Origin: Fibrobacterota bacterium
Lineage (GTDB): Bacteria > Fibrobacterota > Fibrobacteria > UBA11236
NCBI GenBank assembly: GCA_019509785.1
Contig: JAEKLQ010000035.1
Coordinates: 1-64,000 of the forward strand
DNA: 64,000 nucleotides
Direction of reading: 5' to 3'
The notes under the pieces were generated by a model, which did no database searches, was not told the DNA's origin, and worked only from the letters and a program-made list of their open reading frames with translations. Positions 18,454 to 24,294 of this stretch are shown in pieces; the stretch's first letter is position 1, and each line of letters begins with the position of its first letter. The position numbers and the translations under genes were made by a program.

Positions 18454-19533
18454 ATGCACGACGCCCTTAAGCCGCCGTATCCGTCCTTGCTCTTGCCCGC
18501 CGAATGGGAGCCGCAGCAGGCGATCTGGTTCACCTGGCCTCAGAACGCCGAAACCTGGACGCCGGTCTGGGAGGAGGCGCGCGCCGCCTACCGCGCCATC
18601 ATCCGCACGGCGATCCGGTACCAGGACGTGAACGTTTTGGTGAACGACGAGCGGACGCGTGATCGCCTGGCCGCTGAATTCGAAGATGCGGCCCAGGGGC
18701 GGCCTGCGGGCGATGGGGCCACGGGACCGTTTCGCTTGGAATTCCTGGTTTATCCCACCAACGACAGCTGGATCCGCGATTACGGCGCCATCACGGTGCG
18801 GGCGCCGGATTCCGGGAAGGGCACGCGCCTGATCGCCCTGGACTTCGGATTCAATTCCTGGGGCGGCAAATACCCGCCTTGGGACAAGGACGATGCGGCC
18901 CCCCGCTTCATGGCCGAAGCGCGCGGGCGCGAATGCTTGGCCGTGGATCTCGTGTTGGAAGGCGGCTCCATCGACGTGAACGGGAAGGGCCTATTGCTCA
19001 CCACTTCGCAATGCCTCTTGAATCCGAACCGGAATCCCGGGCTGGATCGGGGCCGCATCGAGGCGGCCCTGCACGGATGGCTGGGAGCGGAGCGGACCTT
19101 GTGGCTGGAATCGGGCATCCACGGGGACGATACCGACGGCCACGTGGACGATTTGGCGCGCTTCTCCGACGCGCGCACGGTTCTGTGCGCCATCGAAACC
19201 GACAAGCGGGACGAGAATTACGCTCCTCTCAAGAAGAATATCGAGGCGTTGAATCATGCGGCCCGCACCGTCGACCTCGAGGTCATCGAGATCCCCATGC
19301 CCGCCCGACAGGTCAAGGCGGAGCTGCGGACCCCGGCCACCTATCTGAATTTCCTGATCCTGAACGGGGCCGTACTGGTCCCCGTGTTCCGGGACAAGCG
19401 CGATGATTGGACCCTGCAAGCCTTCGCCGACCGCTTCCCCGGACGCCGCATCGAACCCATCGATTGCCGGGGACTGGTATTCGGCCAGGGCGCCATCCAC
19501 TGCAGCAGCATGCAGGAGCCCGCCGGCGGCTGA
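18454..19533 (+). CDS. aguA: Agmatine deiminase
   Basis: AguA converts agmatine to N-carbamoylputrescine, the substrate of the AguB encoded just upstream. The 359-residue product has LPAEWEPQQAIWFTWPQN at the N-terminus, TNDSWIRDYGAITV near residue 110, the GGSID segment, the His motif HGDDTDGHVDD, and the catalytic Cys in GQGAIHCSSMQEP near the C-terminus. Length and motif order match the guanidino-group-modifying family. No arginine decarboxylase is seen in the window, so the source of agmatine is encoded elsewhere or taken up. Confidence 0.94.
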   Translation: MHDALKPPYPSLLLPAEWEPQQAIWFTWPQNAETWTPVWEEARAAYRAIIRTAIRYQDVNVLVNDERTRDRLAAEFEDAAQGRPAGDGATGPFRLEFLVYPTNDSWIRDYGAITVRAPDSGKGTRLIALDFGFNSWGGKYPPWDKDDAAPRFMAEARGRECLAVDLVLEGGSIDVNGKGLLLTTSQCLLNPNRNPGLDRGRIEAALHGWLGAERTLWLESGIHGDDTDGHVDDLARFSDARTVLCAIETDKRDENYAPLKKNIEALNHAARTVDLEVIEIPMPARQVKAELRTPATYLNFLILNGAVLVPVFRDKRDDWTLQAFADRFPGRRIEPIDCRGLVFGQGAIHCSSMQEPAGG

Positions 19534-19552
19534 TTCCGTCCGACACGGAAAC

Positions 19553-20302
19553 ATGGAGGTTACCCCCGACTTCGGCCTTTTGCCCCGTGACCGCTCTTTC
19601 GCCCAATCCCTGCCCGCTTTCCTGCTTCCCTATCTGGCCTACGTGGCCCTGGCTTCGCTGCCCCACCGTTTCCTGCCGCCCGCCGCCGCCGAAGCCCTGC
19701 GTTTCGCCGTGGTCGGAAGCCTCATGTTGGCCTACCGCCGGGCTTATCGCCTGGGCCCGCCGCTCACCGTACGCCCGGCCTTGGCGGCTTTGGGGACGGC
19801 CCTCTGCGCCTTGGCCCTTTGGGCGATTCTTTACCGCCTTACCCTCGCCTTGCCTTTGCCCCTGTTCCGTTCCCAATTGGATTCGGCCGCCGCGACCGAT
19901 CCGGGCCCTCTTTACGCCGCCTTCAGGGGCCTGAACTCGGTCCTCTTGGTGCCGTTCTTCGAAGAGCTTTTCTGCCGCGCTTTCTTAGGCGAACTCTTGG
20001 CGGGGATGCCTTCCCGGCCCGGTGGATTCCTGGCCCGCCTGGCTCTGCGTATGGACGAGCACCCCGGGCCCTTGTCCCGGCCCCCGGCGCAAGGCCGGGC
20101 CGCATGGGGCTGCGCGCTGGTGTTCACGCTGGGGCACGGGCTGGCGGCTTGGCCGGCCGCTTTCGCGTACTTCGCCCTCACCACCGTTTTATATCGCCAA
20201 ACAAGATCCTTCCGGGCCTGCGTGGCGGTGCACGGATTGGCCAACCTCGGGATCGCGATCCTGGTGTCGCTAGCGCCCGGGATGCGATTCCTTTGGTATT
20301 AA
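19553..20302 (+). CDS. CPBP family intramembrane (CAAX-like) protease
   Basis: This is a 249-residue membrane protein with about six hydrophobic segments. The three Abi/CPBP motifs are visible: FFEELFCRAFLGE near residues 137-149, TLGHGLAAWPAAF near 196, and the final His in VAVHGLANLG near 227. These residues form the glutamate-based site of Rce1-like proteases. It starts 20 bases after aguA and ends 4 bases before the convergent PrsR-like gene. CPBP proteins of this type often sit in exosortase loci, which fits the genes that follow, but it could equally be an unrelated aguBA operon member. Confidence 0.8.
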   Translation: MEVTPDFGLLPRDRSFAQSLPAFLLPYLAYVALASLPHRFLPPAAAEALRFAVVGSLMLAYRRAYRLGPPLTVRPALAALGTALCALALWAILYRLTLALPLPLFRSQLDSAAATDPGPLYAAFRGLNSVLLVPFFEELFCRAFLGELLAGMPSRPGGFLARLALRMDEHPGPLSRPPAQGRAAWGCALVFTLGHGLAAWPAAFAYFALTTVLYRQTRSFRACVAVHGLANLGIAILVSLAPGMRFLWY

Positions 20303-20305
20303 GGC

Positions 20306-21691
20306 CTAGCCTTCGGCCTCGCCTCCGTTCACCTTCGCCTCGGTGCGCACCCAGATACCGGTCTTGCGCATCATGTCGTAGAAGGTAGGACGGGTAACGC
20401 CTACGGTACGCGCCGCCAGGGACACGTTGCCGTTGGCGCGCTGCAGGGCGTTGAGCAACAGGTTCTTCTCGAATTGGCGGCGGGCCTCCCGATAGCTTTG
20501 GGTGGCGTCGCCGGAACCGTCCAATTCCAGATCGGCGTCCTCGATCACGTTCCCTTCGGCCACGATGGAGGCGCGGTTGAGCCGATTCTGGAGTTCGCGC
20601 ACGTTACCGGGCCACCCATGGGCCAGTAAGGCTTTCTCCGCGCGCGAGGACAGCCGCAGGCGCGGCCGCCCGAAACGGGCCCGGTTCTGCTCCAGGATCG
20701 CTTCGGCCAGGATGAGCACGTCGCGCCCGCGCTCCCGCAGGGGCGGCACGCGCACCTCGAACTCGCTCAGCCGGTAATAGAGATCGCTGCGCAGGGCCCC
20801 GTCATTGCCGGTCAAAATGGGCCGGTTGGTGGCGGCGATGACGCGCACGTCCAATACCCGCGATTTGCTTTCGCCGATGCGTTGCAGGCGCTTGTCCTGT
20901 AGGAAACGCAGCAGTTTCACCTGCAAGGCGGGCGGCATGTCGCCGATCTCGTCGAAGAACAAGGTGCCGCGGTGCGCGGTTTCGATGAGACCGGCCTTGT
21001 CCTCGTCCGCGCCGGAAAACGATCCCTTCACGTACCCGAAAAGCTCCGATTCCAGCAGCGTTTCCGGGATGGCCCCGCAATGGATGGGAACGAAGGGGTG
21101 GCGGGCGCGTTGGCCGCCCTCGTGGATGGCGCGAGCGCAGAGCTCTTTGCCCGTGCCGCTTTCGCCGGTAAGCAGGACGTTCACGTCGGTCTGGGCCAGG
21201 CGATGCAGGGTCGCGAACAAATTCCGCATGGGCTCGCTTTCGCCCAACATCGGTTTTTCGGCCGTCACCGGCGTCCAGGAAGGCTGCTCGTCGGGCACGC
21301 TTTCCAGGGAACGCATGCGGATGGCCCGGTCCAGCGCCGCTTCCAGCTTGCCGATGTCCACAGGCTTGGCGAGGAAATCGAAGGCTCCCCTCCGGATGGC
21401 CTCGCGGGCCAGGGCATCGTCCTCCTCCCCTATGATCACGATGACCTTGGCGGCCCGGTCGGCCGACAAGATCGCGTCAATCACCTCCAGGCCGCGATCC
21501 GCGCGGCCCTCCAATCCCAAGTCGAGGCAAACGATGGGCGATCCCCCCTCGGCGGCCAGTTCTTTGGCCGTCGCGAGGGAATCGGCTTCCAGTATCTCGA
21601 AATGCTCGCGTAGCGCCCACTTGAGCTGATCGCGCAAGCCGGCATCGTCTTCCACGAGGATGAGTCTAGTCATGGCCAAGGTATCATGCAT
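20306..21691 (-). CDS. prsR: Sigma-54-dependent response regulator, PrsR (PEP-CTERM/exosortase) type
   Basis: This is a 461-residue NtrC-family activator. It has a receiver domain (phospho-acceptor D57 in VCLDLGLEG, Lys in FLAKPVD), an AAA+ domain (Walker A GESGTGKE near residue 172, Walker B LFFDEIGDM) and a Fis-type DNA-binding domain near the end (NVSLAARTVGVTRPTFYDMM). Overall pattern and C-terminus match the PrsR group that controls exosortase-linked exopolysaccharide genes. The sigma-54 contact loop reads GSFSGA instead of GAFTGA. ATG 21691 is chosen for its GGAGGAG; frame and ATG at 21673 are alternatives. It is divergent from a polysaccharide gene. Confidence 0.82.
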   Translation of the reverse strand: MHDTLAMTRLILVEDDAGLRDQLKWALREHFEILEADSLATAKELAAEGGSPIVCLDLGLEGRADRGLEVIDAILSADRAAKVIVIIGEEDDALAREAIRRGAFDFLAKPVDIGKLEAALDRAIRMRSLESVPDEQPSWTPVTAEKPMLGESEPMRNLFATLHRLAQTDVNVLLTGESGTGKELCARAIHEGGQRARHPFVPIHCGAIPETLLESELFGYVKGSFSGADEDKAGLIETAHRGTLFFDEIGDMPPALQVKLLRFLQDKRLQRIGESKSRVLDVRVIAATNRPILTGNDGALRSDLYYRLSEFEVRVPPLRERGRDVLILAEAILEQNRARFGRPRLRLSSRAEKALLAHGWPGNVRELQNRLNRASIVAEGNVIEDADLELDGSGDATQSYREARRQFEKNLLLNALQRANGNVSLAARTVGVTRPTFYDMMRKTGIWVRTEAKVNGGEAEG

Positions 21692-22041
21692 TGTGCTCTC
21701 CTCCACATCCCCGGCGCTTCCGTTGGGGCGGAAGCCCCGGGAACCGGGCCGCGTGCGGCCCATGGTTAGGAGGGCGATATGCGGAACTCACCCTCGCTTG
21801 GCCGCTTGGATCTAATGGGATCCGGGCTTATCGGCTTCGGCGAAGGATGAATTCCGCATGGCGTCCTCATCGGTTAAGATAAATTTCCCGACTGCCGCAA
21901 GATCAGGTTGTTCCCGGATCCGGTCCCCGTTATACCCGCTTTCTTTCCGCTTTACGGAGAAGTCCGTCCTCGTGGAGGGGGCGTCGAGAATTTTATTTAT
22001 CCCTACACGCTTACCGGTTTTACAAGCCTGGAGTTATTCCG
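21692..22041. other. Divergent control region between prsR and the polysaccharide fusion gene
   Basis: This 350-base spacer has no coding sequence I support. It contains an AT-rich patch near 21990-22000 and GGAG 11 bases before ATG 22042. I looked on both strands for a -24/-12 sigma-54 element, expected if PrsR controls its neighbour, and found none convincing. Confidence 0.5.
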
Positions 22042-24294
22042 ATGAAACCTGCCTGGACCGTTATCTGCATGAAACGTCTGATTGATTTCCTGGCCGGATC
22101 GGCTGGCATGTTGATCATGGCCCTGGTCCATCCCATCCTAGCCCTGCTCATCAAACTGGAGTCGAAGGGACCTGTACTATATAGCCAGGAACGCGTGGGC
22201 ATGAACCGCCGCTCGCGGGGCCCGGCGGGAATTCCCCCCGGCGGGATCGAGCGCCGGCAGTCCAACATCGGCGGGAAACCGTTCAAGATCTGGAAGTACC
22301 GGACCATGCGCCTCGACGCGGAAGCGGCGGGACCGCAATTGGCGAAAAAGGGGCTCGATCCGCGCGTGACCCGGGTCGGCAAATGGCTGCGCGCGCTCCA
22401 CATCGACGAAATCCCGCAGTTCCTGAACGTGATCCGCGGGGAGATGAGCCTGATAGGCCCCCGCCCGGAACGCCCGCACTTCACGCGGCAATACACCGCC
22501 AACCTGCCCCATTACTCCGATCGCACCCGGCACATCCGCCCCGGGCTTACCGGCCTGTCGCAAGTCCTGCTCGGTTACGATGATTCCCTCGAAAGCGTGG
22601 TGCGCAAGACCCATTTCGACATGTCCTATCGCGCTTCCTTTTGCAGCCTCGCCTCTTGGATCAAGATGGAGGCCTGGATCGTGTGGTACACAATTACCTA
22701 TCTGTTGCAGAAGCCCCAATTCGAAGGCGAGACCCGCGAGCTGGCCGTGCTCAAACGCGCCAAGCAATTGCCCTTCCAGGGCCGCGCGCAATCCCCGGTC
22801 CCGGCCCGGACCCGCGTCGCCATCACCTTCGGCAGGGAAGCCCGGCCGGTGGTTTTGGCCGGCTCCAACCCCGCCGAACTCGCCGCCCGCTTCGATGCCC
22901 TGGAGTTCGAAGGTCGCCCCGCGCCCGAGGTCATCGTGCATGCCAAGCCGCACTTCGATCTCGAGGACGTGGGATTCCTGGTGGGATTGGCCCATAAGGT
23001 GAAGCATTATGGCGGCCGGCTTGAGCTGCGCAACGCCCCGCCGGCGGCCCGCAAGATCTTGCGGGAGATGCGCATGGATTCCGTGCTCAACGTGCAGCAT
23101 GCGTATCAAGGCGTCCGCAACTTCCTCACGGTGGACGTCGAGTGCTGGTTCCATGCCTATAATATGCGGGCGGTCGCGCCCAAGTGCGCCTGGCATACCC
23201 TCCCCTCCGGCATCGAACGGAACATGGAGAGGCTGCTCGACCTGCTGCGCGCCCACGAGGTCAAGGCCACCTTCTTCGTGCTGGGCTGGGTGGCCGATCG
23301 GCATCCGGAGGTGGTGCGCATGATCGATCGCGAGGGGCATGAGATAGGCACCCACGGTTACCATCATGATCTGATCACGGAGATGACCCCTGCCGAATTC
23401 GAGGACGATTTGCTCCGCTCCCTGGAAGCGATCTCGCGGAACGCCTCGCAACGCATCCGAGGCCATCGCGCCTCCAACTTCAGCGTGGTTTCCTCCACCC
23501 TGTGGGCGCTGGAAATCCTGGCCCGCCACGGCATGCAATACGATTCCAGCATCTTCCCCATCACCCGCAAGCGCTACGGGATAGGCGATTGGCCCAATCG
23601 CCATCCGCATACCCTGAAGCTGGCCGGCGGCCGTTCGCTGGTCGAATTGCCCATGTCCACCATGCAAGTGGCGGGCCGGCGCATGGCCGTCGCCGGCGGC
23701 GGGTACCTGCGCCTCTATCCTTCCCAGGTGACCGAACGCTTCATCGCCCAACAGAACCTGCGCGGCCTGCCCGCCATGGTTTATCTGCATCCCTGGGAGC
23801 TCGACGCGGAACAGACCCGGCGCAATCTGGGGATGATGGAGAGCTTCCAGCATTACGTCAATCTCGACACCACGGAATGGAAGCTGAACCGGCTGCTGCA
23901 GCGCTTCGCCTTCGGCCCGGTGTCGGAGACGCTCAAGTTGCCGCGTTTGCAGGCCATGCTGCGCCGTAACCCGGTCACCGTCCCCGAGCAATCGCCCGAT
24001 TCCGGCCACCGGATCTCGGCGCCTTTCGCCCATCGCCCCGAGGTCCTCGCCGAAGCGATGACGACGGCCCAGGCGGCCCCGTTGTCCAAGGTCACCTGGC
24101 CACTCCAGATCGGCCCGACGGTCGATTGGACCCCCGTCCGCCGTATGGAAGAGGCGCAAGCCAGCGGGAACGGGAGCCAGAATCCCAACCGCGAAACCCC
24201 GAGAGGGATCGAAAACCCGAAAGGATTTTCGAGCGAAACCCCGGGGGAAGCGCGTCTGTTAGAGGACCTGGAGACGGTGCCGCAAGAGGTATAG
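22042..24294 (+). CDS. Fusion: bacterial sugar transferase, STAS-like domain and polysaccharide deacetylase
   Basis: This 750-residue protein joins three parts. Residues 10-230 are a polyisoprenyl-phosphate hexose-1-phosphate transferase (one N-terminal helix, KPFKIWKYRTMRLDAEA, HIDEIPQFLNVIRGEMSLIG, GPRPERP). Residues 255-355 resemble a STAS fold (DVGFLVGLAHKVKHYGGRLE) but lack the phospho-acceptor Ser. Residues 358-640 are a NodB-type deacetylase with FLTVDVECWF, GTHGYHHD and the extra C-terminal region typical of exosortase-locus (XrtA-type) deacetylases. The rest is a low-complexity tail. It would start repeat-unit synthesis on the inner membrane while the other end modifies glycan, although the topology of the deacetylase is unclear. 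Confidence 0.85.
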   Translation: MKPAWTVICMKRLIDFLAGSAGMLIMALVHPILALLIKLESKGPVLYSQERVGMNRRSRGPAGIPPGGIERRQSNIGGKPFKIWKYRTMRLDAEAAGPQLAKKGLDPRVTRVGKWLRALHIDEIPQFLNVIRGEMSLIGPRPERPHFTRQYTANLPHYSDRTRHIRPGLTGLSQVLLGYDDSLESVVRKTHFDMSYRASFCSLASWIKMEAWIVWYTITYLLQKPQFEGETRELAVLKRAKQLPFQGRAQSPVPARTRVAITFGREARPVVLAGSNPAELAARFDALEFEGRPAPEVIVHAKPHFDLEDVGFLVGLAHKVKHYGGRLELRNAPPAARKILREMRMDSVLNVQHAYQGVRNFLTVDVECWFHAYNMRAVAPKCAWHTLPSGIERNMERLLDLLRAHEVKATFFVLGWVADRHPEVVRMIDREGHEIGTHGYHHDLITEMTPAEFEDDLLRSLEAISRNASQRIRGHRASNFSVVSSTLWALEILARHGMQYDSSIFPITRKRYGIGDWPNRHPHTLKLAGGRSLVELPMSTMQVAGRRMAVAGGGYLRLYPSQVTERFIAQQNLRGLPAMVYLHPWELDAEQTRRNLGMMESFQHYVNLDTTEWKLNRLLQRFAFGPVSETLKLPRLQAMLRRNPVTVPEQSPDSGHRISAPFAHRPEVLAEAMTTAQAAPLSKVTWPLQIGPTVDWTPVRRMEEAQASGNGSQNPNRETPRGIENPKGFSSETPGEARLLEDLETVPQEV

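Follow-up and report, generated by a model that had tools for sequence, protein, structure and literature searches.

We identified in the window, the 64 kb stretch of DNA analysed here, a single uninterrupted ORF of 750 aa (22042..24294, + strand) that joins a PGT, a STAS domain and a polysaccharide deacetylase in one polypeptide, followed by a variable C-terminal tail. The fusion is probably a bifunctional priming enzyme of XrtA/PEP-CTERM-type exopolysaccharide (EPS) synthesis, in which de-N-acetylation would occur on the cytoplasmic side, the STAS domain would be a constitutive module and the fusion itself would be ancestral to the genus. The three-domain architecture, proposed in an earlier note from the sequence alone, was borne out by Pfam and NCBIfam matches, by 13 of 13 homologous linkers, by hhalign, and by the predicted fold and its Foldseek matches.

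The gene starts with ATG, with GGAG about 8 nt upstream, and the MKP/MRP protein start is common to the homologues of groups A–C (described below). The PGT is of the small monotopic class: its core begins at about residue 3, and the TM bundle that, with a DUF, precedes the core in large PGTs is absent. The re-entrant membrane helix (residues ~10–40; 22069..22161, +) carries the conserved K11, R12, D15 and P31 and was modelled as a helix over residues 5–40 with a pLDDT of only 50–59. The catalytic core (residues 76–221; 22267..22704, +) matched PF02397 (Bac_transf) with an E value of 5.3e-46 and contains the Asp122-Glu123 dyad and the PRP and RPG motifs, which match PglC in a structure-based alignment (8e37/8g1n). 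In the full-length model the PGT part was poor (pLDDT ~30), as was the placement of the domains relative to each other.

The XrtA-type deacetylase (residues 360–631; 23119..23934, +) consists of a NodB/CE4 core and DUF3473. Polysacc_deac_1 matched residues 380–497 (3e-22) and DUF3473 residues 502–631 (6.5e-38), and Foldseek returned CE4 folds. The match to TIGR03006 (XrtA system polysaccharide deacetylase) covered residues 360–630 with 296.6 bits, or 299.9 bits in the genome search, above the curated cut-off of 276.2 bits. The tail (residues 640–750; 23959..24291, +) is probably disordered (pLDDT about 30) and ends in LLEDLETVPQEV; the identity was 28–49% in the tail versus 75–91% in the deacetylase part. 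The group A proteins have a similar short acidic end motif, LLEDLET.. (24256–24291 in the window), after this poorly conserved tail.

With regard to the region between the two enzymes (residues ~255–352; 22804..23097, +), domain search and structure prediction both matched STAS. In this protein alone, STAS_2 was found at residues 306–346 with an E value of 0.0064, under the Pfam gathering score. All 13 homologous linkers matched both STAS_2 and STAS (best 4.7e-6), and the linker profile picked up stand-alone DSSG/DSTG STAS proteins, at E values down to 2.6e-9, in other families of the phylum. When the linker alignment was compared with three stand-alone STAS proteins, hhalign gave 96.9% and an E value of 1.6e-10. 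The domain modelled alone had a predicted beta-beta-alpha-beta-alpha-beta-alpha-beta fold (pLDDT 83), for which the top Foldseek matches were SpoIIAA chains (prob 1.00, TM about 0.58–0.61), with a modest E value (0.003) and with unrelated APOBEC folds close behind in the ranking. The linker is a divergent STAS domain by its family matches, the hhalign comparison, the predicted fold and the Foldseek matches, and a chance match was ruled out by the same evidence.

The D-S-[ST]-G acceptor site of STAS proteins reads DLED, DLDD or DLEE in the fusions, with Leu opposite the Ser in 14 of 14 aligned members (Leu307 of the DLED motif, residues 306–309, in the window protein). The suggestion that the usual phospho-acceptor serine is missing was thus correct, and the domain is not a phosphorylatable STAS of the SpoIIAA/RsbV type, which has Ser/Thr at this position. 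We considered and rejected the idea that an Asp/Glu in the acceptor position mimics phosphorylation, because the gap-free alignment pairs the Ser with Leu307 and with neither Glu308 nor Asp309.

The catalytic residues of both enzymes are intact. Wherever the sequences covered them, PGT residues K11, R12, D15, P31, D122-E123, PRP and R/K-PG were conserved throughout the fusion members; R166 is Lys in groups B and C, and the remaining motif residues were invariant. D365, E367, H438, H442, R476 and H583-PWE of the deacetylase were likewise conserved in every member where covered. Purifying selection acts on each of the PGT, STAS and deacetylase domains, with dN values for STAS of 0.10–0.31 against dS values of 0.60–0.85 (unsaturated pairs). 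The linker and the C-terminal tail diverged faster than the domains.

We searched 61 relatives, aligned the ORFs and added a GTDB-wide pattern scan. Each of the six genus genomes searched (soil and groundwater Fibrobacterota) carried the fusion, with as many as four copies in a genome, and the GTDB-wide scan returned named records (isolates nzgw217, RYN_348, RYN_349, 336R_metabinner_36 and Chersky_265), of which all but one are Fibrobacteres/Fibrobacteria MAGs. Among plasmid records, none carried 80% of the query in one place, and none gave a STAS match. The copies in the genus form four paralogue groups. Group A, which includes the window locus, occurs in four of the six genomes (G000, G002, G004 and G005) and is split over two contigs in G002. 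Groups B and C have the same PGT-STAS-deacetylase order, each in 6/6 genomes. Group D, also in 6/6 genomes, consists of PGT and deacetylase with a short linker and without STAS; its copy in G000 (L057) lies on contig C51, 6868–8784, and that in G001 is broken up by the ends of two contigs. Although the window is part of a draft assembly (106 contigs), an assembly or annotation artefact is vanishingly improbable: a single ORF encodes the fusion, which recurs at up to four loci per genome in six genomes that several metagenome projects produced independently. The full-length homologues in all six genus genomes exclude an assembly or frameshift error. In regards to the role of STAS as the joining element, the proposal held for groups A, B and C and failed for group D, which joins the same two enzymes without it. 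Therefore, STAS is not needed for the coupling of PGT and deacetylase.

The fusion gene, on contig C35, lies outside the EPS cluster. The only exosortase locus of the genome is on contig C58, where an XrtA-like exosortase is found alongside PrsK, PrsT, a chain-length/tyrosine kinase protein and a PrsR. Next to the fusion, only a PrsR-like regulator points to such a system, and since the gene is outside the EPS cluster, its link to the XrtA pathway is drawn from the protein families and this neighbour. The regulator is a divergently oriented PrsR-like (PEP-CTERM-box) sigma-54 response regulator (20306..21763, − strand) that matched TIGR02915 with 439 bits, under the cut-off of 502.6. It adjoins the fusion in 4/4 group A loci and is a second, orphan copy that shares 56% identity with the PrsR of the exosortase locus. 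In the four genomes checked, a second PrsR copy was present in the two with group A (G000 and G002), and a single PrsR in the two without it (G001 and G003).

That PGT and deacetylase are normally separate agrees with their relatives. In a scan of 168 genomes of the phylum, further deacetylases that scored above or close to the TIGR03006 cut-off were single proteins of 278–329 aa with two exceptions, namely ORFs of 384–441 aa in the sister genus and a fusion of deacetylase and GT2 in G003. The latter (contig C20, L065:5818-7587) joins an XrtA-type deacetylase to a GT2 glycosyltransferase in 589 aa. The sister-genus genomes G007 and G008 use a deacetylase that is not fused to a PGT, and the fusion is therefore not needed in related bacteria. 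The G008 protein (L059:6569-7894) has a PGT-type re-entrant helix at its N-terminus and no PGT catalytic core; this helix is about 31–49% identical to that of the fusions, and when only the fusions were searched, the best E value was about 1e-6 or lower. The resemblance hints at a former fusion that may since have lost its PGT core, and favours a post-fission over a pre-fusion state of this deacetylase. The G008 gene adjoins an aminotransferase gene and other EPS genes. HPWKL near the C-terminus of the G010 PGT was evaluated as a deacetylase remnant and rejected (E 0.2, not significant).

In an XrtA locus of Vibrio alfacsensis, two separate genes encode PGT and deacetylase, with 4 bp between them. 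They are adjacent and in the same order as in the fusion, so the joining of neighbours offers a simple origin. The fusion would date back to the ancestor of the genus or earlier, probably through the merging of neighbouring PGT and deacetylase genes, and would later have been duplicated into three or four paralogues. In a maximum-likelihood tree of the deacetylase part, groups A, B, C and D and the stand-alone G007/G008 proteins were separate, with a branching order that was not resolved under the outgroup, so that the tree did not distinguish a pre-fusion from a post-fission state of the G007/G008 proteins; a tree built earlier, with a single very long outgroup, placed G007/G008 beside A.

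From these data we infer both activities, the substrate order, the cytoplasmic site, the role of STAS and the membership in the XrtA pathway. The small monotopic PGT would sit on the cytoplasmic face of the inner membrane via its re-entrant helix and would move a sugar-1-phosphate, probably N-acetyl-hexosamine phosphate, onto polyprenyl phosphate. The tethered NodB-family deacetylase would then strip the N-acetyl group from the lipid-linked sugar or early oligosaccharide before flipping. Both enzymes most likely work at the cytoplasmic side, because the stand-alone deacetylase relatives start at the catalytic motif and lack a signal peptide, and because PglC-type PGTs are monotopic proteins of the cytoplasmic face (PMC10942596). 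The deacetylase most likely modifies a lipid-linked sugar or oligosaccharide at an early stage rather than the exported chain. The STAS domain, devoid of the acceptor Ser, would serve as a constitutive docking, dimerisation or spacer module and not as a phosphorylation switch. It is plausible that the fusion couples priming with chain modification and that the STAS domain binds a partner, as the earlier note suggested.

The conservation of the STAS domain could also reflect a regulatory input, in which a partner (an anti-sigma-type HATPase, a response regulator or another STAS protein) switches the priming enzyme while the fusion remains unphosphorylated. We regard this reading as unlikely. 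The purifying selection on STAS and a conserved DLED-x-G surface motif are consistent with it, but the phospho-acceptor needed by partner switching is missing in all members, and no conserved STAS partner gene lies beside the paralogues, with groups A, B and C differing in their neighbours. Also in favour of a regulatory input, a small signalling protein directly regulates the priming PGT in Myxococcus (EpsW-EpsZ, PMC12802240), and a PrsR-like regulator gene adjoins group A. PrsR is, however, a transcription factor, and its adjacency thus suggests transcriptional control. More speculative, and in our opinion improbable, is that STAS forms a non-phosphorylated regulatory hub that ties priming and de-N-acetylation of an exopolysaccharide to a partner-switching signal, so that the STAS-bearing paralogues would be signal-gated two-step enzymes; in the literature searched, such a control mode was not found described for priming enzymes.

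The PGT might alternatively be a mere tether that anchors the deacetylase to the membrane, with the two domains serving different substrates or pathways. The G008 deacetylase, whose N-terminal anchor is just the PGT-like helix, fits this explanation, and so does the GT2 fusion of G003, which indicates that the deacetylase changes partners. An anchor would not need the PGT catalytic residues, however, and these are kept in every fusion member; we consider the tether rather doubtful. A bifunctional priming enzyme with a constitutive STAS module is the reading that we prefer.

Proteins in which a second functional domain is attached to either end of a small PGT core constitute a described class, the Bi-PGTs (PMC10942596), and receiver domains have been reported on small PGTs (PMC12802240). 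The present fusion belongs to the Bi-PGTs, sharing with them a PglC-like core and a further enzyme domain in one polypeptide, and differs in its partners, an XrtA-type deacetylase and STAS. The class reportedly goes back to the 2021 PNAS survey of O'Toole et al. In the literature searched, which that survey lay outside, neither a PGT-STAS-deacetylase nor a PGT-XrtA-deacetylase fusion was found described. The XrtA/PEP-CTERM locus on the Vibrio alfacsensis plasmid NZ_CP140104 encodes a TIGR03013 PGT and then a TIGR03006 deacetylase, in the same order but as two proteins, with a PGT of 466 aa, whereas the window fusion joins a short PGT through STAS outside the EPS cluster. The STAS domain shares with the SpoIIAA/RsbV antagonists (PF13466, PF01740) the predicted fold and the C-terminal motif ...GG.L...N.S..V...L....D.V..I; unlike them, it is embedded between two enzymes and has Leu for the acceptor Ser in all members. 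In Myxococcus xanthus EpsZ/EpsW, a signalling-type domain is likewise associated with a priming PGT, but EpsW is a receiver-domain protein of its own whose target is a large dimeric PGT, whereas the STAS domain here is fused to a small PGT and its regulatory role is hypothetical.

To our knowledge, the order and cellular site of the deacetylase step in XrtA systems have not been established. The conserved fusion of PGT and deacetylase constitutes Rosetta-Stone evidence for an action on early lipid-linked sugars at the cytoplasmic side. Moreover, the natural coexistence, within one genome, of fusions that carry STAS and fusions that lack it provides a handle on the role of a degenerate STAS domain on an enzyme.

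The divergent intergenic region between the fusion and the PrsR-like gene (21764..22041) contains inverted motifs, GATAAAT (21878–21884) and ATTTATC (21995–22001), that are conserved in the alignment of the four group A loci, where they read GGTTAAGATAAATTT and TTTATTTATC-C-TAC. In its exact form, ATTTATCNNTA has a single occurrence in the 64 kb window, and the exact group A motif is absent upstream of groups B, C and D. The inverted motifs are possibly divergent promoters or a site for PrsR or another regulator; a simple pattern search for sigma-54 -24/-12 sites upstream gave nothing consistent. Directly downstream of the PrsR-like gene, a CAAX-type (Rce1-like) membrane protease is encoded (19403–20302), which other group A loci share; fusions of EpsH with a CAAX protease are on record (PMC1569441).
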